From Sanderia malayensis (Eukaryota; Cnidaria; Scyphozoa; Semaeostomeae; Pelagiidae): DNA of 64,000 bases. The stretch spans positions 2,088,888-2,152,887 of the forward strand of contig RQOL01000519.1 in the NCBI GenBank assembly GCA_013076295.1. Direction: 5' to 3'. Below the pieces are notes generated by a model. That model was not told the origin of the DNA and ran no database searches. It worked only from the letters and a program-made list of their open reading frames with translations. Shown here in pieces: positions 1,302-25,700 of this stretch. Each line of letters starts with the position of its first letter. The stretch's first letter is position 1. A program made the position numbers and the translations under genes.

Positions 1302-4300
1302 TCACCTATCGTGCTCCTCCGTACTTTCCAGACATTCAATCAGACGCGCATCTTGACTTACGTCACTTGTTGGAGCAGTAGCAACTGTTTGTTTCTCCTC
1401 CTCGCTCGTCGACAATCCACCAGCGAGTTCATTTAGGCCCTTCTTTCCGACCCGGCCGTGATTGTTCTCCCTAATATCTCCAGTGTAAAGAGACGTGTTA
1501 TTCATCTCCAGTTGTTTCTGACGAATCTTCTTCTGTCTATCCAGCTCAGTCTGCTGTGTGAGCATTCTGACTTTCAACCAAATTGGCACACCGGCCATGT
1601 GTTTGTTCACGACGAACCATTGCAACACACTTTTCTGTTGCTTCGCGCAAATTTCGTCGATTTTTCGTTCGATATCTGCGAGCGATTTCTCGTACGACAG
1701 AAACAATTCTCTTTCTGAATCCACCGTGGAGCTGGGCGCTTTTAAGTAAACAATAACTGTCAGATTTATCGGACGTAGTGGTTCATTTAAAGCACACTGA
1801 AACTACCCACTAACCGTCCTATCTCAAACAACCATCGAGATCCTTGGTACAAGAAGAGGGATGCCGTTGCCACACTCATGAGATAACCACGGAAAATCAA
1901 CAGTGACAAACTCAACAGTGACAAACTGCTACGCGAGTCGTAAAGTAAAAAAATATATAGAACCATAGCGAGCAACTTAATGACTACAGTATTTCCAGTG
2001 AACATTAGTTATTTGCTAAAAGTAATCATTCAGTCTTATACATTATTGCAAAAGACCTCAGACAACTATTGTCAATGATGGTTGCGGATATGACACTAAC
2101 AACAAGCAACCAATATTCCCCCTGAGCATAGTAAAAACCACTTGTTTAGCTCTCAGATTAGTACCCAGACATACACTGATACTACCGTCAATACTGATAA
2201 TAATTGGGCCTCAGTCAATCCTCCAACCAACGTAGCCAACACATACTTAAGAAATAAATAAACGTTTCGCTTACCTTGCGATGCGAGTGGTGCCACCTTC
2301 TTTCTTTTCAAAATACGACCAATAAATCGCGCGGAGAATTTCAAAACCAAGACAACAGCCGTTAGTATTCCAAATACAAGAATCGAACTGACGAATAAAT
2401 TATTCTTTATTGACAGCATGCTCTCAGAGTCGCTTGTTGTCGTAACTGTGAGCTGGAAAAAGATTTGCTGTTAGATGCAGTTTCTTTGCATAAGTAAGGT
2501 CTTTTATTAATATAATAGTATATGAGCAAAGCTTGAATGGTTTAAGACAATTGGACGCGCCGGAGGAGGTTGTGCCAGAACAGAGTATATAGACCATGCA
2601 CGTCGAAGTGAAAATATAGAGTGTGAACAGAAAAACACGTGAAGAAGATAAGTAAATGAGCAGCCGGAAGAAGAAGATGGAGTGTCTACATTAAAAAAGG
2701 ACACAACGGAAGAATCAACTGGACATCTAAAGAAAAAGATACATTGCTTATAGCAAAAGAAGGAGCTATAACCAAAATATCGAAAGAAGAAGATAGAGCT
2801 TCAACATTCGAAGAAGAAAAATAAAGTGTCTACAGCAAAAGAAGAAAAGGATGTAGTGTCTACAGCAAAAGAAGGAGAGGGCACAACATGCCCAGGGAAA
2901 AAGAAGAAGTTGCAATATGTCTTCATCAAAAGAAGAAGACAGACTCAAGAAAAGCATTTATTCATATTAAAAAAAATTACCTTGACCACGCCACGATATT
3001 TGGTAACAAAATCATTAATTGAGTTTTTGTTAACTGTGAGGTAAGATAGAAGGTCTCCTTCAAGCGGAATCAGGTCAGATGATAGCACCAAGCCGTATCC
3101 ATCGATTTGTTCAAATCTTTGAGCCACAACTAGTTGGTTGGCGTTGATTTCATTCTGCAAATTAGCAGCAGATAATGTGTTGATTAGAGCGCCCTTCACG
3201 TGGTCTTTAATCAAAGCATCCACAACAGCCTTGTCATCAGAGAGAGCAGCTGTAGAAAAAATATGAAACTTATTGAATTGAATTCAATATTGAAGATTGA
3301 ATATAAAGACAAATACACCTCGATTCTCTAATGCTTTCTGTACTTTACTAAAAAGATAGCAATACTACATGGCTGGGTATCACTTAAAAACACCACGATG
3401 CTCAGCTCCAACGAACAACGGAGAGCATAGCGTACCGTCTGCTATGTGGAGGTTCCATCAAGTATCTCCAATTATTGTGAATGCATTTCTGCAAATACGG
3501 CATTATATTTTTTTAAATAAACTCCCACATACAAGAATAATACCTTTTAATTCGGCATTTCTCCTTATTGCAAGGTAATACTCTGAAGAATTTACCTTCA
3601 CAGCAACCTACAAATTAAAACATACACACATGATTACCTGCTATTGCATTTAGAAAGTATTTCACGTGGAAAATAGAAAAGGTAAAAAATCTATGTTTAC
3701 CGAAGTACCATAAAGCATAATATTCTTTTTGACATGTATGCTAGTCATTGCTGTAGTGATGACACCAATTACCATGGAGTTCATGATTGGACCAATCAGC
3801 ATCCAGGCCATTGCTATCGATCTGGCAAGATTCGATCTTGGCGTGAAGTCACCATACCTGGTTTGAAGATTCAAACACATCGAATTATAATCTGCATTGT
3901 ATACTTCATGGAAGGACACGTTGGAGACGTTGGCAGCCTAATGCTTTTTTCCGTTGTACATGGACTCAGACAACTGAATTAAACACACGCACAGTTCTTC
4001 TTTCGAAATTATTCACATAAAAAAAGCTGGGGGCATAGTACATACACTTACCCAACAGTTGTCATGGTAACGATTCCCCACCAGAAGCCTGAAAGAGTTC
4101 CACGAACGAAGCTGCCGTAATTAAACTCTTCAGGGTTTTCACGTCTGTCCTGGAAAAGAATTCAAAAGTATAAAGCACTATACTACACTACAATATTACG
4201 ATCACCCCGCCACTGAAAAACCGACTTATAAGAGCCTGGTACATTTCTGGAAACAATAGATAGAACAATAGTCTATTGTTTTTAAACAATACCCAGTGGT

Positions 4301-7300
4301 ATCAAAGACCGATTTCTAAGTGGCAGGATAATACTGTATATATAGACTACTCACTGTAAACCAGACCATTGTGCCGAACAACCACGTTAAGAGCACAGCT
4401 ATTGCCATAGGAGGCCAGCAAGAAAATGCCAAGCTAGAAATTTGATCTCCAACTGTTGTCGTCTTCTTCTTTGTTAGCAAAACTGAACCAGCACTTTCAA
4501 GAACCATCAAAAATTTGTAATCCTTTAAGAAGACGTCAACCCCTTGTCTTCCATTCACAGGGACAAATATGTGTGCGTTTTGTGCCACTTTTCCTTTCAA
4601 CTGCTCTTCATCTAAAGTACATGAACACGGGGCAATGTCATTATTAGAGAAATCCCATTGGGTTATTGAGACGTAACGGTCAAGAAAACGAAGAGCTCAA
4701 GTTAAAAGGAAAAAAATTATCGAGATTGAACAACATCAAAGGAGTATACAAAATAAAACGTTGCCTTATTATGTATTACTGAGGGTCGTATAGGGGGAGT
4801 CATGTTCCCCTGTTCCCTTATAGAAATTGCATATGTTCCCTCATTGTTCTACGAAGAAATTTCCATTTTTGTGTTCCCTGATCCCTGTTTGCTATCAATG
4901 TTCCCTTGTTTCCCGTGTAATTTTCTCATGTTCCCTTGTTCCTTTTTTAATTTTGGGCATGTTCCCCTGTTCCCTGGAACCCCTATATGACCCTCATTAC
5001 TGAACAAAGCAGAGGGTACTGCACGAACAAGCAAAGAAAGTGATACTCCATGTACAACAAGCAATGTAAGACACAATATCACAGAGACTTCACTACTTGC
5101 GACAATAAGTTCAAACTCACTTTCAAATACAGCTCGTCTCCCATCCTTTGTTTTGTTGAAAAACAGATTGACATTGCCAAAGGAATGCTCCGTTGAGCCG
5201 TCACAAATTCTGCATATCTCTGCCGTACAATTTCTGATATATTCAGCAAAAACGCCCTCGGGCCCAGCCGCATTGCCATGTATCAAAGGCTTGTTTGGGT
5301 ACCACGAGACGTAAATGCTTCTTGGACACCGACACGTTTCTAAAAACACAAAATTAACAAAAATCATTAAATCAAAATAGGAGCATATTATGTCATTAAC
5401 AGGAGTGTTTATGAGGGTGACATTTTGTGAGATGCTTCATAAAACTCGATAATGAGAGAAGTATCTCTCAAAATTTCGAACTCATAAACACTCCTGCTCA
5501 TTGCATGAAAAACTTCCATCCTGATTATGACAATAACTGAACAAACAAGCAGAAGCATATTTACTAACGTTCTGGTAAACAGATAAATCCACTAGAAGCA
5601 GTCCCAATACCATGCAACCAAGACCATAGAATAGGTATCTATCAGTAACCATGTGCATTAATTACATGAGCATTATCACATAAACTGATTCATTAACATA
5701 CCAACATATACAGGTGCACTCTTTGGTCCTTCTCCCACCACCGTAGAAACGGATACTTTGATTTCAACTTCTGTATACGACTGAAATCCACGGAGAATTG
5801 TTCCGTTAGTATACTGAGACACGGCAATCGATTTCTCGATTAAACTCGCATCTTGAACATTACCACGTCTGGTTACCCTGTAGTAGACTGTGTATTGAAT
5901 GGGGATTCCACCAACCCCGTGTTGGGACATCGTGGTCCAAGTGACGAATATCTCACCGTCCCGGGACAGCAGTTTCGCAGCAACATTGCTTGGGGCTGTT
6001 GACGGCACTAAAAAGATCCAACAGCAATACATCAGCACGGAAACCTTGCAGATAATTAAACATTGTTACTATTAAATTACTAAATACTGTTCTTATTTTT
6101 ACAGTGGACTTTACAGTGATTCAGGGAATGACTCTGGCACATACAATTGCTATTTTCCAAGGCATGGGTATATGTGCTGAACCCAGTGATGGACACTGAA
6201 TGGCCAAAAGCTAATCTAAACATCCTTTCTGATCCTTTCTGCCTCATGTGAGAAATTCCAGGAATATTTTTATATATATATGTATATATATAGATTCTTA
6301 CTGTCTATACTGGCATCACAGTGCTCGATGTACAGAAGTACAGAGCAATAATAGAATAAAAGCAAGAAAGTAGACTAGTTCTCTGTTACTCGGAATTTCA
6401 TGCTTTCGCAATCATCAGACTGACTCTATTCTATATATATATATATATATATATGTATCTTGTATATATATCTTGCATGGATATCTCACTGCAAGTCACA
6501 TACTAACCATCCTGGTCGGTTTTGCAATGCTGCCAAGCAAATGGTCCATTTCCAGCACCAGTTGACGCAGCCAAGTTAATTTCGTATCGCGTAAACGGTC
6601 TTAATCCAAGCCCCAGAGTAAAATACGGAGAAACACTCGACACGGAAAGATTTCTCCATTCATGCATTGAATTGTACTCCCTGTAAAACACCGTATATCC
6701 CGCCATGGCTCCATGCCAGCGATTGCTAGGCAAAGGAAGCCAACCCAGATTCAGTGATCGAGCTGAGGAAGGTGTGCAGACGAAGTTATCAGGAGCCATG
6801 TCAGGAACTGAAAAAGAAAGGACATTGACATCTTAGAAGGAGGGGATGCAGGATACATGGAAAGCTTGCAAAAATGTGTTCCAGGACTTTTGTCCCTATT
6901 GTAACTCTTTTTGTTTGCAGTCAAATCTTGAATCAGGATTGGTTCATGAGTGAAGCTTGACGGGATGAGGGAACACGCTACATGTTAACATAACATGTAT
7001 AGTTCGTATTTGGTCAAGTCCACCGCAAGTTTATTACTTACCACCTTGCATTGTCACACAGTCGACGTATTGACTAGCAATGCCATTGCCATGCATGGTA
7101 GATGCTGCAACTCTGATTGTATACAAAGTATACACGCGCAGCCTGGTGATCACGTGATGCCTTGCAGAAGATCCATTCACGGCCTCTCTGTGCCAGGAGT
7201 CGTTACCAAACTCCTTGTAGAAAACAATAAATCCAGTGGTGCCAGTTTTAATGGTGGCGACTTTCCAGTGAACACCGATGCTTGATGAAGAGATTGCGCT

Positions 7301-10300
7301 TGCGTTTGTTATCACTGGAGCTCTAGGTACTGGAAATATGAAAAATGCGTATAGTTAAAAATATTGTTTTTCGGGGCTATTGGCGTTAGCCCCTGAAAAT
7401 CGCATTCAATGTTTGATATTTCTGAGTAGATTTATGAGAAATCAATGGACGAGTCAGGGGGGTTGATAATTGCCAGGGTTCGAGTTGGGAGCAATTGAGT
7501 TCATTTCAATCGATTTGTAAACAGCAACCATCGCTTTAAATGACATAATTATTGATCATAACCAATGTCAATAACACAACTGAAATTAACATGAAAAATA
7601 TTGCTATTGCATTCAACCTGTAAATACCAGACAATGCCATTACCTGGTCCCATTGTGTTCACTGCATGGAAAGCTACGATTTGTCGTACCATCATAAGAA
7701 AAATAGAAATGCAGATGGGTAAACTAAATTACCTGTTGGAGAGAAGACTCCATAAGGTTGTATTGGCATTGTATGCAGGGCTCCAACATCTTCAATAGCA
7801 TGTAGGAACAGGACAATTTCATCGCTGGAACTTTGACGAAATGTGATGGTAAAGCTGAATGTGCCGTTAACACTAGAGACACAAATAAACAAACAACATA
7901 AATAACAAAAAAATCAAAGTAAATCGAATAAACCTCAGGGGCTTATACAATGTACATTGGTTAATTCATTGACGGTTTGTTATGATTTGCATTCAGTTGA
8001 AGCTAAGCTCAACAAGTCGACAAACATTTATGTTGAACTTCTCGATGTGTCCAGCATCTTTTTGTCTCCCCTGACTGGTCATAGATAGACCTTATGTTTC
8101 ACCCTCGATAACTTCAACTCTCGTTAACTCGAACATATTTCTCATTCATTTGGATGTTTGATTTGTCGAGATTCAGCTGTAAATGTCTGTATGCAAAACT
8201 TCATTGCTTAAAACCCAATGTGCACCCAACTGTCGCATGGTTGTGTTGCAATCACATACCTGATATAATGCAGAGTAACGCCCAGTACAACATTCGGTCT
8301 ATTCTCATACAATGCATCGATCTGAAAAAGGATTCATCTCAAAATAGAATTAAAGCGATATTATTAAGCATCCGCAAATAAGAAACTACTTCTGCTGAAT
8401 TGAACCCTCAAACGTTTATTAATTAAGGAAACGTTTTCAGAATCAGGGTAAAAGTTTCTTATACATAGTTATTTGTCATTCGTTTTTGAGAAACCTACGT
8501 TGTATGACAGTATTTCATTAGAAAATTAGTTAGCATAGACGAACAAAATAAGAAAAATTTTAATTTCAGACCCAAAATAATTTCTTATAAAATGAACCCT
8601 TACTAAAGATAATGAGACCTGTTTCTTATACAAGGAGGTTATTTATCTCTATTCCTTTGGCATGCAGTTACAAACATGCTATTAGATTAAGATCGGAGCC
8701 TTTAGGCCTCAAAGAAGAGGGTAGTGACTTATTAATCAAGAATTGCGAAAGCAATGTGTCCAAAGTATTAATTAATATCATACAAAAGCATTAGATACTA
8801 CAGCATAAAATAGAATAGAGTGCCATACAATGCCATATGGTTCTTGGATAATGGAAAGAAAACACATAAACAAGAGGAAATTGTCGACAGCATGGTTAAC
8901 GTACGTTTTGTCTCAATTTGTTTTCGAAAGCAATTTGCGAAGAGCTGCCATTATACCAAATAGAAGAGTTGATTAATTCATTTTTAAATCTTCCTTCTGT
9001 TGTTAGGTTGAGGGCTGAAAAGGAAAAACAAGCGAGAATTTAAAATTTGTTGTTTTCATGTTTTTAAACAAAATTACAAGCAAATACCCATTCGATACAA
9101 CTTAAAAATAAGCCAGTTTGCATGAAATTTATTTCTTGTGCATACCTTTGCAAGAATGCGTGTTGCAAGTTCGATACACCAGCATTGCTCCTTCGCAGAG
9201 CCGTCCACCAAACGCAGGGGCTGGTGAATTGCATTCTCTGTAACTCCGCTTTCTTCCAGCGTCACAAGGCTGGTCACAATTCGACCATTGTGACCAGCCA
9301 CTAAACCCACCATCAACTAAGGAAAATAATTTGAAAAAGGAATGAGTGAGTCTTGGTAGGTCTGACATTTGTCAACGGAAGAAAACATTGCATAACAACA
9401 GTTAACAACTTGGATACCTCGAGCACAAAAGAAAAAAGGAATTTTCTCGAGTTAGAGAGTGACTAATAAATTTAACCCTAGCAGACGAGAGTCAAAGCAT
9501 ATACCTTTACAGCGCTGAAATTTGCACCCGTTGAGCTCCTCAGTTATACCAGTACAACTGAGACCCCCATTCTGTGGAGGGGGGTTCGAACATGTTCTAT
9601 TTCTCGTTCGAACTCCCCCGTTGCATGATTGGCTACAGAGCGACCACATTGACCAGGAAGACCATGCACCATCGACTGAAATTTAATGAAATTATAATTT
9701 AATTAATTTAATTTAAAACACTGATTAATTGCAGAGTGTATGATGTAAATATAAAACTGACCCTATCATTAACCTGGGACAAAATAAAAAATAGTGCAGT
9801 ACAACCTTGTTATGATTAACTATACAATCTGGTTTACAGGTATATAACTTGCGCACACACTAGTATACTATATTGTAAGTGTACAGCTATAGAGCAATAT
9901 CGAACGACAACGTGCGTTATGCTCGTAATCCTCGTACTTTCAGGTTAATTATCATGGTTCTAGAAGCAACGTTGGATGCAAATAGCTATTCGATGCAAGA
10001 TGCTGTTCAATGTGAATAATTGCTTGATGCAAAGAGCTATCCAAGGCAAAGAGCTGTTCAATGCATTGGTTCATTTGTTGTGACAAGTGAAATTTGTAAC
10101 GACAATATCAGTTACTAAAATTCGCTTACCTTTGCAAGGAATAAAAGGACACAGTTGCTCTTCTTTGCGAATCTCTTCGTCGCAGCGGGGGTCATTGCTA
10201 CAAATAAGGTATCTCACCCTATGCGATACCCCACACGTACTTGAACACTCACCCCAGTTTGTGAATTTCCTTCCACATTTCTCTAGATGAAAGAAACCAA

Positions 10301-13256
10301 AAAATGCGTTGAATGCAAATGCAAAGGAATAAATGTATGTTGTATGTTGTGCCGTGTGGCATTTGCTACTTGTTATATATCGCATGCTTCAGTATTATGA
10401 TAAGAATGGACAATAATATGCTGAATGTGACCAATAGTATGATCAAAGTGGCTAATTTTGCGCTGTCCATTGTGTCGTGTTGTATTTTAGTTGTGTTGTA
10501 CATAGCGTGTATTGTGTATTGTGTATTGTGTAGTTGAGCAAAGAATGATAAGCTCAAAAAAGGTAAGGAATTATGTCCAGCCATCTAAACATAACAAAGT
10601 CATTAAACAATTTCAGCTCTGAATACGTTGAAGAAACAGGATCATGCGCAATAGCAAGATTATATAGCCCTGTTTCTTAAGAGAACCTGGTTCTCGTATG
10701 CTATCTCTTGACTATACATAGCGATACATGAGTGAATGTATTCGTATAACAATGTATTCTTATTACCGATACATGCTGCTTTGATTGAGGAATTTGTTGA
10801 CGGCTGTCTTGTTGATAAAGAATTGATCACTGTAGCAATAATCCAGGAGTAAGTATTATTTGACGCAGCAATAGTTGATGAGACATTAGTTGACGTAGCA
10901 ATGGCTGGTGAGGTAATAGTTGACGTAGCAATGGCTGGTGAGGTAGTAGTTGACGCAGCAATGGCTGGTGAGACATTAGTTGACGTAGCAATGGCTGGTG
11001 AGACATTAGTTGACGCAGGAATGGCTGGTGAGACATTAGTTGTCGCAGCAATGGCTGGTGAGATATTAGTTGACGCAGGAATGGCTGGTGAGACATTAGT
11101 TGACGTAGCAATGGCTGGTGAGACATTAGTTGACGCAGGAATGGCTGGTGAGACATTAGTTGTCGCAGCAATGGCTGGTGAGATATTAGTTGACGTAACA
11201 ATGGCTGGTGAGATATTAGTTGAAGTAACAATGGCTAGTGAGGTAGTAGTGTTTGTAATTGTACTTGTCATGCTACTAGTCTTCGATATGGTAGAATCAA
11301 TATCACCAAACTCTGTGACGTATTCGGTAGTAATAAGATCTACAAGCGCAAGCACAATCTCAATCATCTTCTTGGAATAACATGCACTGTGTTCATTAAC
11401 AAGAGTCGAAAAGACATCTGCAAACACAAATGGCATAAATAAGAAAAAAACATATTTCACCTGTAAGTGTGCAGGTTCTTGTCATTTGACTTTCTCCTTG
11501 ACAATAATTACTTGGTACCATAACACTACTGCTATTACAAGACCTTTCTCTCTGCTCTAAGCAAGAATAACTATCGACGTGCAAAGACCATTGTGACCAC
11601 GTAGTCCATTGTGTATTGCCTGGAAAAAGACATAATGTTGGCATAAATCAATAGACATCCATCTTGCCAGTCGATAAGCAATAGACAAGCATACCTAAGC
11701 AATCGATAAGCAATCTACGAGTATACCTAAGCAATCGATAAGCAATCGATAAGCAATAAGCAAGCATACCTAAGCAATTGATAAGCAACAGACAAGCATA
11801 CCTAAGCAATCGATACGCAATCGATAAGTATACCTAAGCAATCGATAAGCAATCGATAAGTATACCTAAGCAATCGATAAGCAATAGAAAAGCAGACCTA
11901 AGCAATCGATAAGCAATCTACGAGTATACCTAAGCAATCGATAAGCAATCGATAAGCAATAAGCAAGCATACCTAAGCAATTGATAAGCAACAGACAAGC
12001 ATACCTAAGCAATCGATACGCAATCGATAAGTATACCTAAGCAATCGATAAGCAATCGATAAGTATACCTAAGCAATCGATAAGCAATCGATAAGCAATA
12101 GACAAGCATAACCAAGCAATCGATAATCCCCACCTTCGATATCAGCAGCGATTCTCAACTGACCGGTGGTTTTCTCTTTGGTGTTTTCCTGCAGAATGTC
12201 TGACGTGTAAATAACTTTATGGAAAATGACTATCTCGGATGTGTTCTCGTACCTTGGAAACATGTTCTTCGCTGCAATAACTGCCACAGAGTCCTTGGGA
12301 GCGAATGCAGAGTCGATCGAAACAGGAAAAGTGAAACTTTCCCAATTGGCCTGGACGGAATATTCATCCATAAAAACCACTTTGTAATTTCCAGAGCCAG
12401 GAATTGGTCGCACAATGCCAATTTGAATGGAACCTTGAGATTGCGGAGAAACGTGCCAATTCGTAATGCGACCGTAACAAGTAAATTTCAAATCAATGAG
12501 AATCATGACAATGTTATACGTGCCATCTGTTGGAAACAACACTGATCCTGGAGTCAACGTTCCCCAACGAGAGGGGCATTGGTCTAGAGGAAAGACGAAA
12601 TGAAAATCGCATTCAATACCGAGAGAGATTACACAGTTAATAAGTCAAGTAACCATCCAAAAAATACGAAATTTAATACAGGGGTTCTAGTTATCAAAGA
12701 GCAAATTATACCGTAATTCATACAGGGGTTCTAGTTATTTGAGGTCAAATTATACCGTAATTCATACAGCGGTTCCAGTTATCTAAGGGAAAATTATACC
12801 ATATTTCATACGGGGGTTCTAGTTATTCGGGGTCAAATTTTACCATACTTCATACAGGGGTTCCAGTTATCCAAGGTAAAACTAAACCGTATTTCATCCG
12901 GGGGCTCTAGTTACTAAGAGTCAGAGCTGACTGTATTTGGAGAAAAGAACAAAATTAAGGAAAACAAAAACAAAACCAGCATTAGACAGATCAAAGTGTT
13001 TAAAATTAAACACATGATCAAGCTTATAGTAAACTAATGATCAAAGTATTGATGTAATGATAACGATTATATGAGGTACTAACCTGCATGACACACACTA
13101 ATAAATTCGAAAGTTGCCAAGATGGAAATCCAGAGAGTCTGAAACGAAAAAACGTTGAAGTTAATGTTGAGAAAAATGAATTTGAACAACAGCACGAATT
13201 AGAGTGAATGTAATGCGTAGAAAACTCACTCTTACGTTCGAGTTACATGACATCAT
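1302..13256 (-). CDS. Modular receptor-channel: TSP1/SEA/FN3 ectodomain fused to a glutamate-receptor-like K+ channel
   Basis: Hand-spliced from 22 exons whose phases all chain (4722 nt, 1573 residues): 13230-13256, 13084-13138, 12134-12583, 11461-11619, 10767-11417, 10130-10282, 9505-9675, 9146-9316, 8905-9014, 8260-8321, 7733-7872, 7042-7329, 6508-6807, 5702-6007, 5121-5339, 4355-4611, 4052-4149, 3701-3857, 3544-3607, 2981-3249, 2275-2452, 1302-1738. Domains: signal peptide 1-27; unrecognised domain 28-177; TSP1 178-230; Thr/Ser/Asn repeats 231-447; TSP1 x3 448-612; SEA 613-716; FN3 x3 717-1014; S1 1015-1150; M1; pore; M3; S2 1259-1369; M4; tail to 1573. The membrane order S1-M1-P-M3-S2-M4 is that of ionotropic glutamate receptors, but the pore FWWGIVTMTTVGYGDFTP is a potassium-channel filter. 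Predicted role: ligand-gated K+ channel at the cell surface with a matrix-binding ectodomain. Ligand unknown. An in-frame ATG at 13364 exists, but the signal peptide favours 13256. Confidence 0.82.
3701..4149 (-). other. Pore loop with TVGYGD filter and M3 of the receptor-channel
   Basis: Exon 4052-4149 ends in phase 2 inside the filter (GTT GG, donor gtaag) and exon 3701-3857 completes it (G TAT GGT GAC after acceptor aaccag). The junction spells FWWGIVTMTTVGYGDFTP, which matches the canonical potassium-channel pore. M3 follows (SIAMAWMLIGPIMNSMVIGV then ITTAMTS). M1 (PPMAIAVLLTWLFGTMVWFT) is in exon 4355-4611. Animal glutamate receptors normally have a cation-pore M2 and a SYTANLAAF-type M3; neither is seen here. 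Confidence 0.85.
4781..4995. mobile_element. MITE-like element with GAGGGTC termini and TGTTCCC-rich interior
   Basis: Terminal inverted repeats of 16 bp (4781-4796 and 4980-4995, one mismatch: GAGGGTCGTATAGGGG / GAGGGTCATATAGGGG) flank an interior made of degenerate TGTTCCC/TGTTCCCTTG repeats. The six bases ATTACT occur on both sides (4775-4780, 4996-5001), consistent with a target-site duplication. It sits in the intron between the S1 exons of the channel gene and has no coding capacity. Confidence 0.65.
5400..5496. repeat. Inverted repeat, 16-bp perfect arms
   Basis: Arms CAGGAGTGTTTATGAG (5400-5415) and its reverse complement (5481-5496) enclose a 65-bp loop. It lies in the intron between the last FN3 exon and the first S1 exon of the channel gene and is probably a small non-autonomous transposon remnant. 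Confidence 0.55.
10767..11417 (-). other. Coding minisatellite: Thr/Ser/Asn-rich repeat tract of the receptor-channel
   Basis: One 651-nt exon, phase 1 at both ends. After a short non-repetitive lead (DVFSTLVNEHSACYSKKM) it carries about a dozen 10-residue repeats of the type xxSTNVSPAI, encoded by a 30-bp tandem repeat at roughly 10860-11250. Each unit offers Ser/Thr for O-glycosylation and an N-V-S or N-I-S sequon followed by Pro, which usually lowers N-glycosylation. It is probably an extended mucin-like stalk between two TSP1 blocks. Copy number is likely to vary between individuals. The opposite strand is also open through the repeats (a long frame over 10901-11380), but that is a by-product of the 30-bp period. 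Confidence 0.75.
11680..12125. repeat. AAGCAATCGAT minisatellite with higher-order structure
   Basis: An intron of the channel gene, just 3' of its N-terminal domain exon, is filled with about 32-bp units built from cctaagcaatcgataagcaa words. A larger block of about 210 bp appears to occur twice (starting near 11700 and 11910), so the array grew by duplication of multi-unit blocks. The repeats come within about 10 bp of the 12134 splice donor. Confidence 0.75.
12134..12583 (-). other. N-terminal unrecognised extracellular domain of the receptor-channel
   Basis: One exon of 450 nt (150 residues), phase 1 at both ends. It begins DQCPSRWGTLTPG and contains FPTDGTYNIVMILIDLKFTC, GRITNWHVSP, VQANWESFTFPVSI and FPRYENTSEIVIFHKVIY. 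Alternating hydrophobic residues and a Cys pair suggest a beta-sandwich. I do not recognise the family. The donor is a weak gtgggg at 12133. Confidence 0.6.
12677..12914. repeat. 44-bp tandem repeat, five full units
   Basis: Units begin at 12677, 12721, 12765, 12809 and 12853, with a partial unit at 12897. Each starts tacaggggttctagttat and ends accgtaattca with moderate divergence. It lies in the second intron of the channel gene. Confidence 0.8.
13084..13256 (-). other. Signal peptide exons of the receptor-channel
   Basis: Exon 1 ends at 13230 before gtgagt and exon 2 (13084-13138) begins after ttcgtttcag. Together they read MMSCNSNVR then TLWISILATFEFISVCHA, a short polar start, a hydrophobic core and a small-residue cleavage site (VCHA). 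The next exon opens with DQCPSRWG. Exon 1 is the last channel-gene sequence inside the duplicated block, so a second orphan copy sits at 28602-28628. Confidence 0.75.
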
Positions 13257-14827
13257 TTTTGAAAAGCGACTCGAACTAATGCTGCAAAACTCGTACAACT
13301 CGCAAGAGAAGGCTGAAAGAGAAACTCCGTGTGTCTTGTGTTGAGATTCGAATTCCAAACGCATGTGAAAAGTCGAGTTTAAAGCTTAAAATATTGAATA
13401 AATCCGCAATCAATTATTAATACCTCAAATAATCGGAAACAATATTGGAAGCATTAAAAAACGACTTTAATGATAAATCAATTAAACTAAAGCACTGCAA
13501 GTGTGATTTATACTGCATTGGACAATTGCCTTGCGAATGAAACACTCTTGATATCAAATCATGTTGATGTTAGAAGACATAATGGTTCTAAAGAATCAGC
13601 ACAATAATATAGGGAGAACGGCTTTATTGAATTTTGCACAGGGGCTGGCCGAAGAACAATGCAAGCACTGTCAATGAAAAAATTCCTATTGCACAAAACT
13701 AATTAAAAGAACATCTGGGTAGGAGAAAAAATTGCTCAATGATCCTCACTAGATAATAGATTTATAATTCTCTTCAAGTATATAGTTAAATGAATAAGAA
13801 AAGGGCAAAAAATTTGATTGAACTTGCGAGGTTTCGATTTAGCGGCGGTGCTACTTGGAGCACAAACAAAAGGTACGTGCAAATCAAGGAAATATATTAT
13901 TTCTTTTGAAATGCCAAATTATCAAGGTTGAGGAGCATAGATTAGAGAATGGAGGTTTTCAATAACACCTGCACGCAGATCAAGAACATTTAATAGCATA
14001 AACATGTCTATGTTGAAATAGCATTACGTTTATATGATCAGATGCAGGCAATAAAAGAGCTACGCAGAAGAAAGCTGTAGAAAGAATTTCGTCGTGGAAT
14101 GGCCAATGCTTGTCATATTTGCATGCGCGAAAATGTACAAATCAAAGCACAGCTTCAGAGCGGGGTTGAAGCTGTGTTTGAAAGAAGAGATGAGAGATAT
14201 ATTGGACAAACTAAACAAGCACGTGGAGACTCTAGATCTAAAAACTTCAATTACTTCTTAGGATATAAATCAATGTTCAATTAACATAGTAAAATCAATG
14301 TTTTTCTGTTGCCCACAGGGATTTTCTTCATAATTGCGTTTTTACTTGACTTGTGCAATATATTTTCGTTGGCAAAGGAAAATAAACTACTTCCATCAGT
14401 AATTTAAATCAGATGTTAATAAAATAATTTATTAAAGTCCAGCTATCAAGAATGATCGGAATCAGAGGGTCGAAAATTAGCAAATAAAAATCAATTTTTA
14501 GAACAACAGGCAGACAGATAGAAGTTCCTTTGGATTCAGTAAGGGTCTCACAAATTCTGAGCTTAATAAAGATTAAAATATTGTATAACTAGTTCATAAA
14601 CTCACATAATCACATCAAATTCTCACAAATGCTTTAACCACAAAAATATTATATTGAAAGCCTCATCAGAGGCATCTGCTTAAGAAATTCAATTCTGAAT
14701 TTCATAAATCAATGCATGAATTCAGAAGAAAATTTTCCTTTCAAAAAAGTCTCAGAAATAAATATGTTCTACCTGTTGCCATGTTTGTATTGAAAAGTAA
14801 TTCTCATTTCTCCAACCTCAAACCTGA
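13257..14827. other. Intergenic spacer between channel gene and SLIRP-like gene
   Basis: This holds the channel gene's upstream region and the 3' side of the SLIRP-like gene. A plus-strand open stretch at 14099-14284 (MANACHICMRENVQIKAQLQ...) and a short exon-like piece ending at a gtacgt donor near 13870 were seen, but no coherent gene could be built. The segment recurs at 28629-30197 because of the assembly overlap. Confidence 0.45.
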
Positions 14828-15838
14828 TCACTGATTTGCCACATCTCCACTAACCTTCACACTTGGATCAGAAAATACGGCACTTATCTACAATGAAAAA
14901 CAGCTTTATCAATTAACCTGCTAAGAATGTGTGGGTATATAAGCAGCCATGCATAGTTCAATACAGCTCAATAAATATCTCCATTGATTCTAGAGATCCA
15001 TTGCAAAGGAAGCGCATTGAAGTCTGTGGCCCATGGAGCTTTTAAAGCGATATTAAACTTGTAAGAAAATGTAGCAATGTCTGATAAACCTGACCTCTTT
15101 TCCGTCAATAAAATGTGGAGCAGATTCTACAGCTTTTTGTGCATCTTCCGAACTTTTAAATGTGACAAAGCCAAACTTCTTTGATCTACCAGTGTTCAAA
15201 TCCTGAGAAAAACAAAATAAGCTCATAGAGAATTTGACTTTATTTTTATTTACAAAGCTTTTCCTTTGGCAATGACATGCCAGTTAACTTTTACATAGCT
15301 GGACAAGGATAACTTTGAAGAGAGTTTCAAATCACTTTTTCTGTATCTTTAGCTTGAGAAATCTTACTAAAAAGTCTTCATTGGGTTATTTTAATTTGCA
15401 AAGAGCACAGTATAGTAGCACCAATATACCAACCAAGGCAACTTTTGTATCCTTCAAAGGTCCAAATTGTCGAAAATGGCTCCATAGGGAATCTAAAATG
15501 AAACAATATTAGCATTATCTTCAACAAAAACAAAACTGTATGCAAAAGCCATGAAACAAAAAATAAAATACCAGACGTGACAATATTGGCTGTATTATGG
15601 GCCACCCACGTGGTGTTCGTGTTCCAAGAAAAGAAGACAGATAGAACAAAAAGCTTTGATTTGTTGATTAGTTGATTTGCCTGTCTAATTATATATAATT
15701 TGCAATAAATATGCACTGTTTATAGAACAAACATTATAGATATAACTGCCATTGCCTAAAACACTCACCTTTGCAAGCAATCCATGGAAGTCTTGCCACA
15801 AAAAGTCTTGTTGTAGACACAGTCCTCGTGGTCGCCAT
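14828..15838 (-). CDS. SLIRP: SLIRP-like mitochondrial RNA-binding protein (single RRM), copy 1
   Basis: Four exons, phases consistent: 15769-15838, 15434-15492, 15095-15202, 14828-14887, giving 98 residues. It starts MATTRTVSTTRLFVARLPWI, a basic hydroxylated N-terminus typical of mitochondrial import, running directly into RNP2 (LFVARL). RNP1 is KKFGFVTF. Between them lies SLWSHFRQFGPLKD, and DAQKAVES...HFIDGKE completes the RRM. Length, the lack of other domains and the LFVARLPW start match SLIRP, which in mammals binds mitochondrial mRNAs with LRPPRC. That function is inferred from the family. The start codon lies 404 bp from the MAPK15 start on the other strand. A generic mitochondrial RRM protein remains possible. 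Confidence 0.75.
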
Positions 15839-16242
15839 TTTTCAAAAAGGAAGTAGCCTTCTGTTCATTCATTCATTTTTGCAAAAAATCTAAATCGAGG
15901 CTCAATGTCTGATTTAAAGGTGGGAGGTATTGTCTTCGCCAATTTCTTCAACGGCAAAGAAAAAAATATAATAAAATCAAGACACGTAATCAAATTAATA
16001 CGCGTGCATTCATGGTACCCCCACGACTAACAGACGACAGATGAAAATTTAATTTCCTTTTCACTGAAGAATAAACTGATGAATATTTTAGCGGTTGCTA
16101 TTGATTGTATTACCATGGAAAACAATGCACAAGGATCACGCATGCGTAATAGATGCGAATCGAATATAATATTTGATTTTCTGCTAAAGCCAAAGAGATT
16201 TGAAACAGTTTATTCAGCAGAAAATTACCCCACATCTCCAAA
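15839..16242. promoter_or_regulatory. Shared head-to-head promoter region, SLIRP-like / MAPK15
   Basis: Only 404 bp separate two divergent start codons (15838 minus, 16243 plus), so the two promoters must overlap or be shared unless either gene has a distant 5' non-coding exon. No obvious TATA box. The same interval is repeated at 31207-31610. Confidence 0.55.
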
Positions 16243-19200
16243 ATGAGTACAGAAATCGAGGGGCAAATTTTACAGAAATATGAGATAAAGAAACGGCTAG
16301 GCAAAGGCGTAAGTTTCTATGAAATCTCTCTGTTTGATTATGTTATGTATCAAGCGCGAAGTGATTTTGATCCTTGGGCCTATTATTTGCGTTTATGTTG
16401 TTGACAATTTGACATGCAGTTTATTTTTGCAATCTGTTTTGCAGGCTTATGGTATTGTCTGGAAAGCGATAGATAGAAGGACGAACCAAATAGTAGCCTT
16501 GAAGAAAATCTTTGATGCCTTTCGTAATCAAACAGACGCTCAGGTAGATCACTGGAAATTTTTTGTAGCATAACAATCCTGAACTGAAATTAAAACCACA
16601 TATTGTGAATAATATGATGTTTTGAGATCCTGTGGGAAGAGTGGCATACATGTAATCTTTTCTATTTTTGCAGAGAACATTCAGAGAAATATGTTTCCTG
16701 CAGGTACCTATACAAACTTTATTTGGTTTATGTTCTATTCAAACACTTCCTCTAATTTCTTATGTCTTTTGCTATATGCATAAGCTATGCTTCTGTTTCA
16801 ATGCAATTATGTTCCAAGGATGAAAATTGGTCAGAGAAAACTTTGTTTTCCAGGAATTCGGTAATCATGACAACATAATCAAACTGCTGAATGTCATGAA
16901 AGCTGAGAATGATAAAGACATTTATTTGGTTTTTGACTTCATGGGTAAGCCTGTCCATATATATCCACATATCTTATGACCATGCACATTTAGCTTTAGT
17001 TAATTAACATCTGTCAAATTGGAATTTTTTTATGCAGACACTGACTTGCATAATGTGATAAAGAAGGGGAATATTTTGAAAGATGTTCACAAAAGATATG
17101 TCATGTATCAGGTATGATATTTGCACTAAATGTGCTGATTATTCTGAACATTGTTGATTGATTAGCTAATTGGTTCTTTGATTGATTAGCAGGTGATTAA
17201 CTGATTGAATGATCAATTAATCACTTGATCTGTCTGCTGATTAATTGATTGATATTACCATACTTTTATTTTTGACAGTTACTTAAAGCTATGAAATATA
17301 TTCATTCTGGAAATGTGATTCATAGAGACATCAAGGTAAATCATTTTAAATCATGTAAAAATTTCAAGAAATATATTCCTTTGGTTAACATTTGGAATAA
17401 AATAAAATTTTCTCTTTCTCCTCATTTCAGCCAAGTAATGTTTTATTGGATGCTGATTGCTTTATTAAGGTACCCAGCTATTTGGCTGCTTCACTTGGCT
17501 TTCTTGCTATTAAAAATACCATTATGTGATTTTATCATCTATCTATTAACTCAAACTAAGTCTCAATATTACTATTTTGCTCACTAGATCTGTGATTTTG
17601 GATTGGCAAGATCAATTTCAAGTTTGAAGTTTGAACCAGGAGATCCGAGTTTGACCGATTACGTAGCAACAAGATGGTACAGAGCCCCAGAAATATTGTT
17701 GGCATCCCCAGTGTGAGTATCAAAATTCGGTCAGATTTCTCTACGATTTCTCAACACTATGAATACTTGCTTCATCACATTTACCAAAGCTTAGCTTGAT
17801 GTTTGTCATTAACAAGCCATTGTATGCTTTTTGCATTCCTGTCTGATAGCATATAGTTAGTTGACTGTTACATTATTAGCATTGTAATATTGTTGTTAGT
17901 AATATCTCAGTGATACCTGTGTTTCATGGCTTTATGTCTCCTTTCAAAATTATATTTCATGTACATCCATTATTCTCTATTTGGTCTGGCTTGTCTTCAT
18001 ATTTCTTTCACTGATTGATTTCACAACCCTTTCATCTCTGGAAAATAAGGAGACAAATAAGTCTTGATCTATTAATGTTTCTCTGGCATTTTTCTAGGTA
18101 CACAAAAGGTGTTGACATGTGGTCCATTGGATGTATACTTGCAGAAATGCTTTTAGGTACAAGTTTTCCCATTGCATAATAAACTCACTGTATTATTAGT
18201 TTGCTAGTAGCTCCAATGCTGTATGTCTTACTCCATGCTTATTCTAAGCTGACACCTGGCCTCTTTTGCAGGAAAGCCTCTATTCCCTGGATCTTCAACT
18301 CTTGACCAAATAGAGAGAATTATGTCGACCATACCATCACCTACTGCAAAAGGTATATTTTTGCAATGTTACCTTTCTCTTATTGGCATCATATTTTACA
18401 CTGTTATACCTATGCAATTAATACCTCTGTATTGAAATGGACAGGGCGAGCTCAACTCTGTTCTAATACCACAACTTCAATACCAAACATGCACTATCAA
18501 CAACTTCATCCAAACATGTACTATCAATAACTTCAATACCAAACATGAACTATCAACTTCAAGAAATTGATAAAAACACTACAAGTAATCGCATATAGTT
18601 GGATAATCAACTACAGTTGAGCCACTCAAATTTCAATTATCATAATCAAGCATATTTAACCTGCATCATTCTTTTGACATATCTCTGAAACGTTTCTTTA
18701 ACTCTTTGCAGATTTGGATAGCATCAAATCAGCATACAGTGGCAGTTTATTTGACAAATCGACACATCACAGGCCAAAACGTCCGATTGAAGACATTATG
18801 GCTAGCGCGCCATCCGACGCAGTGGATTTACTGAAGAGATTTTTGCAGTTCAATCCGGAGAAACGGCTGACAGCAGAAGAGGCACTGAGTCATCCATACG
18901 TGGCAAAATTTCACAAGCCAGCTGACGAAACTTTTCTCCTGTATGATATTGTACCGCCCGTTAATGACGATATACAATTAACTGTTAACGAATACAGGGA
19001 TAAACTCTACGAGGTATGTGTGCGTATTACTCAATATCTTTATTTTGAACTCCCATTCCAATCTACAATAGTGGACAAAAGTTTTGGGACACTTGCTTTC
19101 GCAAATTTTGCACGTTTCCTTCGCCCCCTTCCTCCTCCAAGCAATGTCACCTCTAGAGATAATCTTTTAAAATATTAACAATACTCATTTTGCTCGATGA

Positions 19201-20881
19201 TCACATGCTGATTGTGGGAACAGCATTGTTTTAGTGGTAGTGGGGGGAGGGGGTGAATAAGGCTCACAAAAAAAAAGTTTCAATTGTCAGTCACTAATCA
19301 TCATCACTAATCATTGTTATCAATCATTATCATCACAAGTGATCCCAATGAATCACTATACGATGACTCTAACACGTAAGCTGTTTCTTGGCAGAGCATA
19401 ATCAAACGCAAGGCAGAAGTTCGACGACAAAGAAAAGAACTATCCTACCAAAGGGAACAGAGACCCGCCGATGAAGCAAGACAGTATGCACCAGCTACTG
19501 CTTCCAAAAGCAGACCAGCTAACCCAGGTGCCAAACCAGTTAAAAGCGAAGCTTCCGTGACGTCAAATGCAACAACGACAGCCGTGGCGAATCCAGCAAG
19601 TCCGAATGCAAAAGGTGCGCATTCGTCTCCTGTTGGCAATAGATCGTCACCTCATGTTGCAGTTGCGTTTGGACGCACCACGCACCAGCTTCCTCCATCT
19701 CCGGCGCGTGCGCAGCGACCTTCCAAATCTGCCCCGTTGCATCGTGCAAGAGCTGGCAGTGCAGAGAATCTTCATGTAAGACCGGTCTTCTTTACCTAAG
19801 CACTACTTTATCGATCCCCTTAGAGCCTCTGTCCTTTGAGTTAGATTATAAATCATATTCTTTTAAACAGTTTGAGTTTTATGCAACTATAACAACATCT
19901 CCTATTACTTTGCTTCCTCGTAAAGTCCCCTTACTACGGAATAAGCTCTTTATCTTGGACATTTGTTAATTGCGCTAGCATTTGTCACTGTGTAATCAAA
20001 TCACTCCTTTACTAAATTCTGTTTCTATTTCAGTCCTACGGAGCACCAAAGCCCAGTCCCACACTGAACAGATCACGTCCGATATCAAATCAAGCGAATA
20101 ATAATAAAAATAATTCTATTTTAATGCGTTCATCTTCCATGGATAAAATTGGATCTCTTTCTGTCACAAGTGCAAGAATGGTAAGCATTCGATACTGAAA
20201 CGTAAATAGTTAAGCCTCGATATAGCTATTTACCATCTGGAGAATGTGAAATTTTCCTGTTGATTGTTAGTGTATACACGGTTACACTAAGAAATGGGGG
20301 GATTCAAGTCCATTGAATGGTCGAAATACACAGTGGTCCAACTGTTATCTGAATTTTCTGTACTTTTGACTTCACCATTTGCCTACCATGCTAAACCATA
20401 TTATACTTTGATATACATTACTGTTCTATACTATTTAATACCATACTATGCTATGTTATGCTATGCTATGCATACTCTACATACCATACTAAACTATACT
20501 ATGCTATACTATATCTTGTCATACTATACTATAGCATACTATATTATGTTATGCTAGCTATACAACAATCCTATACATCTATACTATACTATAACATACT
20601 ACTATACTGAACAGTACCATGTTATACTATGATTTACATACAATACAATGCTAGTGAGTAAAGCATTCATAAGATGTGGTTTCTTCCAGGTGCCACATCA
20701 ACGTCAACCACAGCAACAACAACAACAACAACAACAACATGAGAAGAGTCCGGGCTTTAAGCCCGGTCGAAAGCCGCGACCAGGCAGCGGACCGAACCAA
20801 TATGCTGCGGGCAGCTACACCCAAACGCACGCCACAGTCACCAAGAACATGTTATCATCTTTACAAACGAAACTTTATTAG
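16243..20881 (+). CDS. MAPK15: MAPK15 (ERK7/8) atypical MAP kinase, copy 1, intact
   Basis: Fourteen exons: 16243-16308, 16445-16543, 16674-16703, 16854-16944, 17038-17111, 17279-17335, 17431-17469, 17588-17712, 18098-18156, 18272-18352, 18712-19013, 19395-19775, 20034-20180, 20690-20881. They give 580 residues with all phases chaining. Kinase features: glycine loop [18 protein letters not shown] lysine, HRDIKPSN catalytic loop, DFGLA, activation loop [33 protein letters not shown]. The [18 protein letters not shown] stretch is typical of ERK7/8. The dual-phosphorylation motif is TDY, not the TEY of human MAPK15. The roughly 240-residue C-terminal tail is basic, Ser/Pro-rich and has nine consecutive Gln, as expected for this long-tailed family. 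Known roles elsewhere are ciliogenesis, autophagy and autoactivation. Confidence 0.92.
20385..20600. repeat. CTATACTATA-type simple repeat
   Basis: Degenerate five-base periodic sequence (ctata/ccatacta words) in the last intron of MAPK15. The counterpart lies at about 35740-35960. It resembles the longer array at 44650-45440. Confidence 0.7.
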
Positions 20882-21427
20882 CACATGCACATAACTCAAT
20901 TGGTAGTAGTAAATAAAAGTCGTGAAATACTTTTTAGGATAAAGCTATTTCTTTCAGCTTTATTAATGAAAACTCTTGTGTGTCCCATTGGGATTGATGA
21001 ATGACTTTCCACGTGGTATGCACATTGCGTGCATATTATTGGCTAGTTGTTCATTAACTGGGCTTGTGATTGGTCGAAATTGCACGGAACAATAAAAAAC
21101 AGGGTCGAATTTTCCCCGTTGGCGAAAGGTTTTATTCGTGTTTTAGAAAAACATTAGGTAACCCAAATTGTTTTGAAATAGGTCCAAGAGCAATAACTGA
21201 TAAAACTTGACATTCTAGTTGTATTCAGTAATGTTTTGTTTTAAACTTGCGAAATACCAGATATGGAGAAGAGTTTTACTTGCAGTTTTTAATGAATATA
21301 TATTAACTGTAAATTTTGGAATTAATTTCAAGTAAACCATGTACGTAAATTAGCTTGTAATAATAAGATAATAAAAGTTGGTTTTAATTATTAAAGGTGT
21401 AATGAACTGATACACGTGGTTTTTCTT
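20882..21427. other. Spacer 3' of MAPK15
   Basis: AT-rich, no supported coding frame. It would carry the MAPK15 3' UTR (aataaa-like words near 20912 and 21094). Repeated at about 36249-36792. Confidence 0.4.
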
Positions 21428-22089
21428 TCAGAGTTTTGTTTGAGCTGCAGTAAAGGCTAACGTGTACTGAAACTTTATGATTTAAAAAATCACGAGTGTC
21501 AAAAAATTGCACGCATTTCAAAATAATATTATAAGAAGGTTTGGTTGTTATTTACACTGAACTTGGGATGACAAATGCAAAATGAAAACATAAGCTTACT
21601 TGTGACTTTGATGAAACAGCAACATTGCTTCGAAGTGGTAGAACGCAGGGGCTTCTCAAAAGCTATGAAGGCTTCCAAAGTTGATGTTTTAATCTTTCCA
21701 CGAGACAGAACTATGTCGGAGGACAATAATATTATCGAATGAAGACTTTAAGAATTTGCTTTCTCTTCTCATAGGCCTGGAAATTTAAGACAAAGCCTCT
21801 GTAATTCTCGTTCAAAATAAAATGGATGATTTAATTTGGCCATGCTATTCAAATACCTGCTACGCTGATTATTGTCCCAAGAGACAACAACTTTGTCTCC
21901 GAAAAACTCTCTAAAATATGATTGGCTGGTGTCGAACATTTCAAGGTTGACGAGCCAATCAAATCCGCAGGAAAATGTATCTTGATTATCTTGAAATTTG
22001 GGATGATATCATAAAAGCGTGCTGCTAATTTGGCAAACTTGATTTGGTTATATCTGACAAAGAGTCGCAAGGAATTTTTGAAGAGACAA
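21428..22089 (-). CDS. C-terminal three exons of an unrecognised gene, copy 1 (one-base indel)
   Basis: Exons 21857-22089, 21600-21745 and 21428-21444 chain in phase to TGA at 21428-21430. The product includes FAKLAARFYDIIPNFK, CGFDWLVNLEMFDTSQSYF, FGDKVVVSWDNNQ, LSRGKIKTSTLEAFIAFEKP and ends KVTTQTKL. I do not recognise the family. In this copy exon 21857-22089 lacks one C (in ttatcttgaaa) that the second copy has, which breaks the frame. Upstream exons were not found with confidence. It lies between the convergent 3' ends of MAPK15 and peroxidasin, so it could also be a nested gene or a spliced 3' UTR with chance coding look. Confidence 0.4.
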
Positions 22090-22710
22090 CTAGAAAGACA
22101 ATCTATCTAAAATTAAGCATACAAACTATCCATGATAAAACTTTGTTAACAATACATAGGTATAAAATATATCAAAAATCTCTTTGTTTACTAAGTACAC
22201 GAAAGACAAAAATAACAATAACACGTTGTGTCAATTGCTTACGTCAGCATTTATCATGCCAGATTTGCAGAACTTTGAAATTTTACGGTTAAAAAATTGA
22301 TACGTATTATAGTGTAGACGTTCGAAATTAAAAAAAATGTCCAGAAAGTGCTTACCTACGAGAGCCAAAATAACCAGATAGTTATAAAAGACAATACTTA
22401 TAAAAAATAAAATAAAATAAAAATATCTGTGAATTTAAAAAACTTTACGATGCAATGAAAATGGCAATAAAGACATTAGCACTTTCACCCCGGCATGTAC
22501 CATATTGCGATTCATATACTTTCTGATAAGTAAAGGTTTTAGTTGGTGCCTAAATTTAAAGCATTGAGACTTTAATTCCCTAAAAAAATGATTTTGTATT
22601 GCAATCAATTGGCTATACAGAAATTCCCCGGGTGAAAGTTCGTACCAACTAATACATATGGTGTTTGTATAAATGGTTAGATCTTACCTAAAATTTCTTT
22701 CAGCTTTAGG

Positions 22711-25700
22711 CTATTCTTTGCATTGTGTGCTTCCATCCTTAAAAATAAATTCCCTGCGTTAAAAATTTGCATGCTTTTGAAACGAATTTAATGGCCAAAC
22801 TTAAAGTAAAAAGAACACATAGGACCCGAGATTTAAAATGCAAAGAGAAAGACAATGAGACAGTTGCATGGGCATGTTACCAACTATTAATATTTTGTCA
22901 ACATCATAATAAATTTCAAAAACATGTTTCATACCACACAGTAGCAGAAAATTCCTTTCTTTGTCATCCAGAACTCGCCATCTTGTTTCGTTTTTCCATT
23001 TTCATCCTTGCATTCGGTCTTAACCTCTGGGTCTTTGCAATGCTACTCTTTATATCAGACAGCTGTTGGTACAGGAAACAAAATACATAAAATGTCATGC
23101 AATTGGTCTACACTAAAACCCGCAAATAAGAACCGATGGATTAAGAACCTCAATGATGGTATTCTACTCAAAACAATAGAAGAAATAATAGCCTATTGTC
23201 TTTAACAATAAGTCGGATGCAAAATGTGCAGGTTGCTACATGCGCGCTTTTATACTGTATTCAAGAATGTGGCAGAGATCATCTAAGTGATTGGTTCTCA
23301 ATAACTTGACGTCACGTCACGCTAACTAGGGCAAGTTTCTACTTTCTGAGGTATTTCAAGGTTCCTTAACTATACAACCAAAACAAACCTCGTAAATTTG
23401 GATGCAGGAAGCAGAAATCAATGAATAATAATATAAAAGAACCGAATAGCAAACCTCTTTTCTCAGGTAATTTATGTTAGTTGCCATGTCAAGTAGAACT
23501 TGTTCCAACTTCACCACCCTTGATCCTATATCATCCTTGCTTTTCCTCTTTTCCTCCATCTTCTCATCGTCCTTCGTTTCGTCTTGGGTCTCTTCTTCCT
23601 TTACCATTTTTTTTCCAGCGTCAGCCCTTTTACCTTCAATTGCAACTTCCTCCTGAACTTTCTCCAATCTCTCGTGGAAAGCAGCTGTATCTTTGATATC
23701 AGTTTCATCATGTTCACGGGCAATCTCTGGTGCTTCTAACTCCAGTGAATCTGACTCTGGTGATCCTGACTGTGGCGATTCTGATTCCGGCGATCCTGAT
23801 TTCGGTGATTCTGACTCCGGTGATTCTGACTCCGGTGATCCAGACTCTTGTGATCCTGACTCCTGTGATCCTGACTCTGCAGCCAACGTTGAATTTTCTG
23901 GCTCTGGTTCTGACGCCACAGATCTCCTGCTTCGTTCATGCAAGAAATTTGTGATGGTGTAAGACGTATCTCTACTTGAACAAGAATCTGCATAAATTCA
24001 AGACAAGAATAATAGCAAGCGACTGACAATAATAAAACAAAGTATAGCCTTAGTTCTATGACGTCGTAAGATGCTCATTACACACTGTTTTAATACGGTG
24101 GTACCGTAATGCTTCGATTAAACGCCTCCCTCTTTTAAACGCCCCCCTCAAATAGAATCTCCCTTAAAATATCAAAAAATAATAAACGCCCCGGGCGTTT
24201 AATCGAAGCATTACGGTATACTGTTTGATGAGAATAATGTTGATAAGTGTACCGAAGCTTAGCATTGCCTAAAAACAATAGAAGCTTGAAAATAACAATG
24301 GAAAGCCTCAAAGATCGGAAGAACTTTTAGCACTCGTGAAAAAGGTGCAGAAAAAGCTACAAATTATGCAAAATTCCTCAGCTCGTTAAGTCATACAGGA
24401 TTGAGCATGAGAACTCAATGTGCAAACTAAATCTCTCCCACCTTTATCAGGGCAGCAGTCCTTCCAGAAACTGAGATCCAAACCGGGTATCGAACCGCAG
24501 GGTCGATACTCAGCGTGGCTTTGAACTCTTCTGAACACATCTCTTTGCACGTGTTGAATGTTGTCACTATTATCGCAAATTACTCTGGCCAAAGACACCT
24601 TAAAACGACAAAGACATTTGGTATCATTAGCGAGGGGTTGTTCTGATCGCTAAACACTACAATCATGGGTCTGAAGGTCATGTCGTCGTGGGGTCCGGCG
24701 ATTAAAACAACCCATTGACGATACGACTACCAAACTGGCCAGCTGCATTGTTACAGATGATGTCAACGTAATACTGTAAAACTTGTGAAGTCAGTAGATC
24801 ATTGCATGACTGTGGCATCTTTAATATACACTAGATTATATCTATAAACAAGTGTTGGAGACGGCTTCAACCATTACCCCTGAAAGTTTAATCTATGGCA
24901 TGATCCAATATAGGTTATATTATATATAAGTGATGTTGGGATGATATTAATATAAAAAGCTACCTGTTTTATCTGAGTTAGCTGCTCCGGTTTGAAAACT
25001 CCAGGATTCTCATACCAGAACCGATCACCATCTCTTAATTTCTTGAACTGCGTAGTAAGCAGGCACATGAAAACGGGACCGAGTTTTGTGCCGGGTATCG
25101 TATTCTCCACCATTCCACCCAGGAACAAATCGACGTTGTCGGGATGCAAGTAAAGCTCCTTCATTTTCTCCCGAATCGCCGGGTTCTGGATCTCGCCTGC
25201 CAAGTCTTCGAACGACTTGGCTGAAGTCAGATTGCAGAACTGCCGCCAATCGTTGTATCCGGGCAGCGCGTGGTCCCTGCCGCGCTGGATGTTGAGCGCG
25301 GCCAAATCCAACGCGATTTCATGTGCCATCTCGAACAATCTCTCGGTGATTTCCGAGTTCATCACTTGATCCGTGGTCAAGCGGCTTTTCGCCGCCGTGC
25401 CGAACAATCCGCGCAACAACGGATCAACGCCGCCTTCGTAGATGAGCCGGTACGGCGAGAAGAAAGCTTTGTGAAGCGGCAACGTGCCGTGCACCGTTGG
25501 CAGAAACGACGCGTTCAAGCGAGCCATGAACGGCTGGATCAACGAGTGACCGAATCTGAATGCCGCCGTTGCAAAAGCGTTGAACACCGACGCGTCCGTA
25601 TTCGGGTTGTAACGCTCGTACTTGCCAAGCCGTTTCATGCCGACCTCGCCAAGAATTTTCGGCAGCCATGCGTCGTACATGATGTGCTGCATTTCGGCGC

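Follow-up and report, generated by a model that had tools for sequence, protein, structure and literature searches.

Two glutamate-receptor-type proteins with a K+ filter, the bacterial GluR0, which has two membrane helices, and the rotifer protein AvGluR1, are described in the part of PMC12332018 available to us. In 2010 the combination of a glutamate site and a K+ filter occurred, as far as its authors could determine, in bacteria only (PMC2950845, in its available part). Here we describe a gene of the scyphozoan Sanderia malayensis, located on the minus strand (13256–1302) of a 64,000-nucleotide stretch of contig RQOL01000519.1 (hereafter the window), which probably encodes a glutamate-receptor-type K+ channel subunit carrying an adhesive stalk. 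The literature searched, including the accessible parts of PMC12226733, PMC6307864, PMC12332018 and PMC2950845, with most subscription journals and preprints lying outside its range, describes neither this family nor any channel of this architecture, as the original prediction, made from the letters of the window, had supposed.

The gene comprises 22 exons which join in phase, all 21 introns being GT-AG, into one frame of 4713 nt, that is, 1570 amino acids and a stop codon. The original prediction had correctly given 22 in-phase exons; its figure of about 1573 residues is near our count of 1570, or 1571 with an alternative donor of exon 12, GTAAGT, lying 3 nt after GTGGTA. This donor adds one Gly, is used in P0001, and may well be the correct one. 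P0001 is an independent public gene model of 1102 amino acids, in which the last TSP1 repeat, SEA, three FN3 domains and the channel stand in one protein. It matches our model exactly from residue 532 onwards save for the Gly and a 40-residue insertion in S1, which derives from a later splice donor and is absent from the homologues; paralogue C655 has the short donor of our model. The exons before residue 447, including the mucin-like exon, are based mainly on open frame and splice sites. Since homologues and five paralogous loci share the domain order, chance is excluded as its source. The strings quoted in the original prediction, FWWGIVTMTTVGYGDFTP, ALIKD and GYGLVLSSD, were all found in the translation.

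The channel part has the order S1–M1–P–M3–S2 plus M4, the topology of ionotropic glutamate receptors (iGluRs). Hydropathy analysis gave three membrane segments, assigned as M1 (4144–4423; value 1.73), M3 (3746–3835; 1.78) and M4 (2315–2395; 2.83), M1 and M4 also being helices in the predicted model. Between S1 and S2 the P loop carries the TVGYG filter (3848–4104; TTVGYGD at residues 1200–1206), where Pfam Ion_trans_2 scores 45.5 bits against a cut-off of 22.5. An intron splits the filter and, checked base by base, occupies the same position in the window gene and in C655; a guessed 23-base filter pattern had no match in the sequence. VGYGD recurs in 11 of the 12 rows of a family alignment which omits P0003 (partial, filter present) and P0001 (a near-copy of the window protein), the exception being P0013. 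M3 is K+-channel-like, and by motif look-up and alignment no SYTANLAAF-like motif is present in the window protein. A cytoplasmic tail (residues 1413–1570; 1302–2314, including the stop codon) is assigned from hydropathy. Sequence, hydropathy and the predicted model thus agree with the iGluR order and K+ filter proposed at the outset.

That S1 and S2 are like periplasmic binding proteins, a point on which the original prediction had staked itself, was found by both profile and fold. S1 (residues 1013–1135; 4460–5337) and S2 (residues 1249–1370; 2441–3721) are, on the predicted model and the profile, a two-lobed clamshell of the periplasmic-binding-protein type. The S1/S2 profile matches the S2 of 85 bacterial GluR0-type proteins (with a reversed control), and by fold the model matches GluR0 along with further binding proteins. 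The CxC...CxxC of S1 supplies four cysteine columns conserved in 12, 11, 12 and 9 of the 12 rows, and the NSxE start of S2 is conserved in most of them. The family profile A2 against the PDB returned, among the 60 matches listed, FN3 proteins and K+ pores, and is uninformative for S1/S2.

The S1 arginine holds the carboxylate of an amino-acid ligand. In the family, R occurs at most twice among the 12 rows in any column lying between the FPI strand and the strand after it. A strict motif, [TS][IVL]T..R..DF, is present in 67 of the 85 bacterial relatives, in none of the 12 family S1 rows and in 5 of 1700 shuffles; for a loose arginine motif the corresponding figures are 84/85, 1/12 and 167/1700. 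Because this arginine is not conserved, a classical alpha-amino acid is unlikely, judging by the sequences, as the ligand of the family, and its loss speaks against glutamate as the activator. At the acidic position of S2, ten of the 12 rows have D, the window protein has N and P0017 has P; ten paralogue loci inspected by eye have D (9/10) or E (1/10), and a loose count among the bacterial proteins, 52 of 85, was set aside. In the window copy ligand binding may be lost altogether. Of the "ligand-gated K+ channel" originally proposed, the filter sequence stands, while ligand gating is put in doubt by the unconserved ligand arginine.

The ectodomain begins with a start codon and a signal-peptide-like segment (residues 1–25, two exons; 13085–13256), recognized from sequence and hydropathy. 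The N-terminal domain that follows (residues 26–176; 11618–13084) has no assigned family, no Pfam match and, at the sensitivity of the search, no other copy in the genome. TSP1-like repeat a (residues 177–228; 11462–11617) falls outside the three stretches matched by Pfam TSP_1 (60.5 bits, above cut-off) and was detected by blastp to a TSP1 of P0012 (E 0.005, against the fetched proteins only). Next come a Ser/Thr-rich, mucin-like segment of in-frame tandem repeats in an open exon (residues 229–444; 10771–11461), TSP1 repeats b, c and d (residues 448–610, one exon each; 9147–10277), the SEA domain (residues 609–715; 7328–9152) and three FN3 domains (residues 716–1008, one exon each; 5712–7327), to which Pfam fn3 matches in three stretches (82.3 bits, above cut-off). 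Pfam does not list SEA in the window protein at E ≤ 1. A profile built from eight homologue segments scored 50.0 bits at residues 609–723, the best of 200 shuffles (185 reported) reaching 4.5, and with the predicted model this argues that residues 609–715 are a SEA fold. The self-cleavage motif G-S-V-x-x-x is absent, N-G-T-F standing where G-S-V is found in all eight homologue segments and in all five other paralogues where SEA was detected; with the motif lost, the SEA of the window copy is probably uncut. TSP1, SEA and FN3 do stand, as predicted, in place of a LIVBP-like domain, no LIVBP-type Pfam match having been found in the window protein. Of the Pfam families named for checking, TSP_1, fn3 and Ion_trans_2 exceed their cut-offs, but SEA is unlisted and Lig_chan falls below (18.8 bits against 30.8; among nine other scanned proteins only P0008 passes, with 34.3).

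Searches with the channel part, in which 6225, at least 7989 and at least 7993 candidate proteins were scored, recovered four proteins of Nematostella (P0002, P0008, P0011 and P0012), one each from Exaiptasia (P0009), Stylophora (P0010), Actinostola (P0003, partial), Montipora (P0013), Clytia (P0014) and Dendronephthya (P0017), and two further relatives (P0015 and P0016). All four Nematostella proteins have TSP1, a SEA match, FN3 and the channel in that order, SEA exceeding its cut-off only in P0008 and P0011. P0010 has the same domains in a permuted gene model, and in P0014 a SEA-like segment lies between TSP1 and FN3. Some members bear database names such as "phosphatidylinositol phosphatase PTPRQ" and "Protein sidekick-2". 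By sequence these proteins constitute a cnidarian family of such channels, extending over several classes; rather than the single fusion first envisaged, the window gene is a member of an expanded family. The same domain order, which the original prediction proposed to look for in sponges and cnidarians, was found in the latter, and no sponge protein occurs among the source-named matches of the candidates scored, in searches not aimed at sponges. In P0013 the filter segment is absent while S1, S2 and M4 are present, which may reflect a gap in the gene model or a true loss giving a non-conducting member. P0016 has an Ig-type domain in place of FN3 before the family channel, and P0104 and P0105 have K+-filter pores followed by segments which by eye are S2-like.

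Searching the genome with the channel part of the window protein gave 55 exon matches, and with that of Nematostella 70, both sets including exons of other K+ channels. The window, ten loci mapped in detail and 11 candidate places make 22 places in all. Six of them (window, C655, C464:241k, C478 and two on C777) have TSP1, SEA and three FN3 domains before the channel, the TSP1 profile used for mapping having been built to include the window's own repeats, TSP1a among them; within these six the SEA motif is lost in the window only. In seven more, namely C809, four on C859 and two on C815 (of which one carries a TSP1), FN3 was seen but no SEA within the fetched stretch; as that stretch often starts inside FN3, further domains may lie upstream. 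The remaining nine (C405, C815:3.89M, C817 and six on C829) show no such domains in the fetched stretch. The filter half-exons read TVG + YGD in 19 of the 22 places; for one C859 copy the search did not recover the first half. An array of six family pore exon pairs occupies C829:5226829–5263335, where three weak S1 matches were seen and neither an ectodomain nor S2 was detected; we regard these six places as candidates only. Two tandem paralogues on C777 (2962044–2964374 and 2977786–2979782) both read THGYGD (half-exons THG + YGD) instead of TVGYGD, a natural variant of the filter. Some near-identical copies, chiefly those on C859, may stem from duplication in the assembly, a suspicion raised because the window itself holds a duplicated 15.29-kb block. 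The genome also has 20 exon matches to PF10613, the canonical glutamate-binding domain. Since two iGluR loci, L036 and L038, have the arginine, no K+ filter, and TTYTA/MTAYTA in M3, the canonical and the K+-filter kinds coexist in this genome.

In a tree of 32 rows, 21 animal and metagenomic rows are parted from ten bacterial rows plus P0104 by a branch at 99/99, P0104 itself belonging neither with the animal family nor with the bacterial group. Of the C859 copies the tree includes one, and of the 85 bacterial proteins 10; it omits 11 further candidate places. Its branches are long, those of five rows especially, and the program warned about how P0104 joins the bacteria. The window protein pairs with C655 (100/99). 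Clytia is nested with four loci of the window's genome in a group of five rows (98/98), and if this group is right the duplication would be older than the split of the window's animal from Clytia. Rows with the full architecture are clustered and do not form one clade, because they require 4 changes on the tree. The family may have arisen by old retention, by transfer or by a pore swap.

The reading we prefer, and hold to be reasonably probable, is that of a GluR-type K+ channel subunit with an adhesive stalk. The gene product would be one of the subunits of a tetrameric cell-surface channel, its extracellular S1/S2 clamshell sitting atop an inverted K+-channel-type pore (M1, a re-entrant P loop with TVGYGD, and M3) plus M4, and its stalk of TSP1, mucin-like, SEA and three FN3 domains replacing the usual amino-terminal domain. 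Closure of the clamshell, by a ligand (probably no classical alpha-amino acid) or by strain on the stalk, would gate open a K+-selective conductance and hyperpolarise the cell, so that contact or ligand outside could quiet it. Judged by its anatomy, the family would work like a K+-selective glutamate-receptor-type channel. We infer that the stalk couples the channel to the matrix through some adhesion partner. In SEA-bearing relatives the SEA would cut itself, leaving the outer TSP1/mucin part held non-covalently and able to be pulled off. As a speculation to which we attach little confidence, the self-cut SEA stalk of these cnidarian adhesion-type channels might couple TSP1/mucin contact or tension to the GluR0-like K+ pore, making an inhibitory contact-to-voltage switch with the logic of adhesion G protein-coupled receptors (GPCRs) or Notch, in which case the window gene would have given up the cut.

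The window copy might instead be a silent or auxiliary subunit, whose clamshell no longer binds ligand and whose role is adhesion or anchoring in heteromers with its paralogues. We take this to be possible though the less expected outcome: S2 has N where the family has Asp, the SEA motif is lost here alone among the six loci of the same architecture, and the 21 other candidate places offer possible partners, yet the long frame is intact, as are the pore with its filter, M4 and the cysteines of S1. It seems to us rather unlikely that this is a K+ channel gated by force or contact, whose stalk passes tension arising at the matrix or a neighbour on to the clamshell or pore and whose clamshell serves only for coupling. 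The S2 Asp and the NSxE start of S2 are kept in most rows, as for a binding site, and some places have only FN3, or no stalk that was found, in the fetched stretch; the long adhesive stalk immediately before S1, the G-S-V retained by homologues and other paralogues, and the unconserved ligand arginine would fit such gating.

Our reading is weighed down by the per-sequence S1/S2 scores, which are weak. Together with Ion_trans_2 as the strongest membrane match, they would suit a plain K+ channel whose S1 and S2 resemble binding proteins by accident. We consider this very improbable: the fold matches and the profile match with its reversed control point the other way, a membrane segment follows S2, and the profile search ranks GluR0-type proteins above other K+ channels, P0019 excepted. 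Accidental likeness was rejected on the fold and profile controls. More improbable again is that separate ectodomain and channel genes were joined by the original prediction and the gene predictors. The window gene model does come from genomic sequence only, but its introns are phase-compatible, and other cnidarians as well as five further loci show the same order; an artefactual fusion was rejected on these homologues and paralogues.

Elsewhere in the window, two 15.29-kb blocks (13216–28488 and 28589–43851), 99.7% identical, flank a gap of 100 N, and probably reflect a false duplication where scaffolds were joined. The second block contains a copy of the first exon of the channel gene, at 28628. 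Both carry long peroxidase-like frames on the minus strand (24874–26994 and 40232–42213) with Ig-type exons nearby, peroxidasin-like by eye, and a frame which by eye is kinase-like lies at 18702–19178 and again at 34071–34547. A search of the window for a second channel part matched only the gene's own exons, besides matches of its TSP1 and FN3 domains to one another, and no tRNA or Rfam matches were found in the window.

Given the expanded family in several cnidarian classes, animals would have kept or regained a glutamate-receptor pore with a K+ filter and joined it to adhesion modules. Its members offer candidates for rapid inhibitory signalling, chemical or by contact, beyond the classical receptor families, and they bear on the evolutionary union of K+-channel pore and glutamate-receptor clamshell. 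The cleaved SEA surface proteins MUC1/MUC16 and adhesion GPCR F1 share the SEA fold and, with the relatives of the window protein, G-S-V; here, however, SEA stands on the stalk of an ion channel, and the window copy is without G-S-V. With the animal iGluRs (AMPA, kainate, NMDA, delta and epsilon, and sponge lambda) the window protein shares fold and a topology with M4, but it differs in its K+ filter and in having neither SYTANLAAF nor a conserved S1 arginine. AvGluR1, from a bdelloid rotifer, has to our knowledge no TSP1/SEA/FN3 ectodomain. GluR0 and its prokaryotic relatives have the same S1–M1–P–M3–S2 order, TVGYG filter and binding-protein clamshell, whereas the window protein adds M4, the adhesive ectodomain and the family cysteines and has no conserved S1 arginine. 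Because two classical iGluR features fail, the S1 arginine and the M3 motif, we file the family not as a glutamate receptor but beside GluR0 and AvGluR1.
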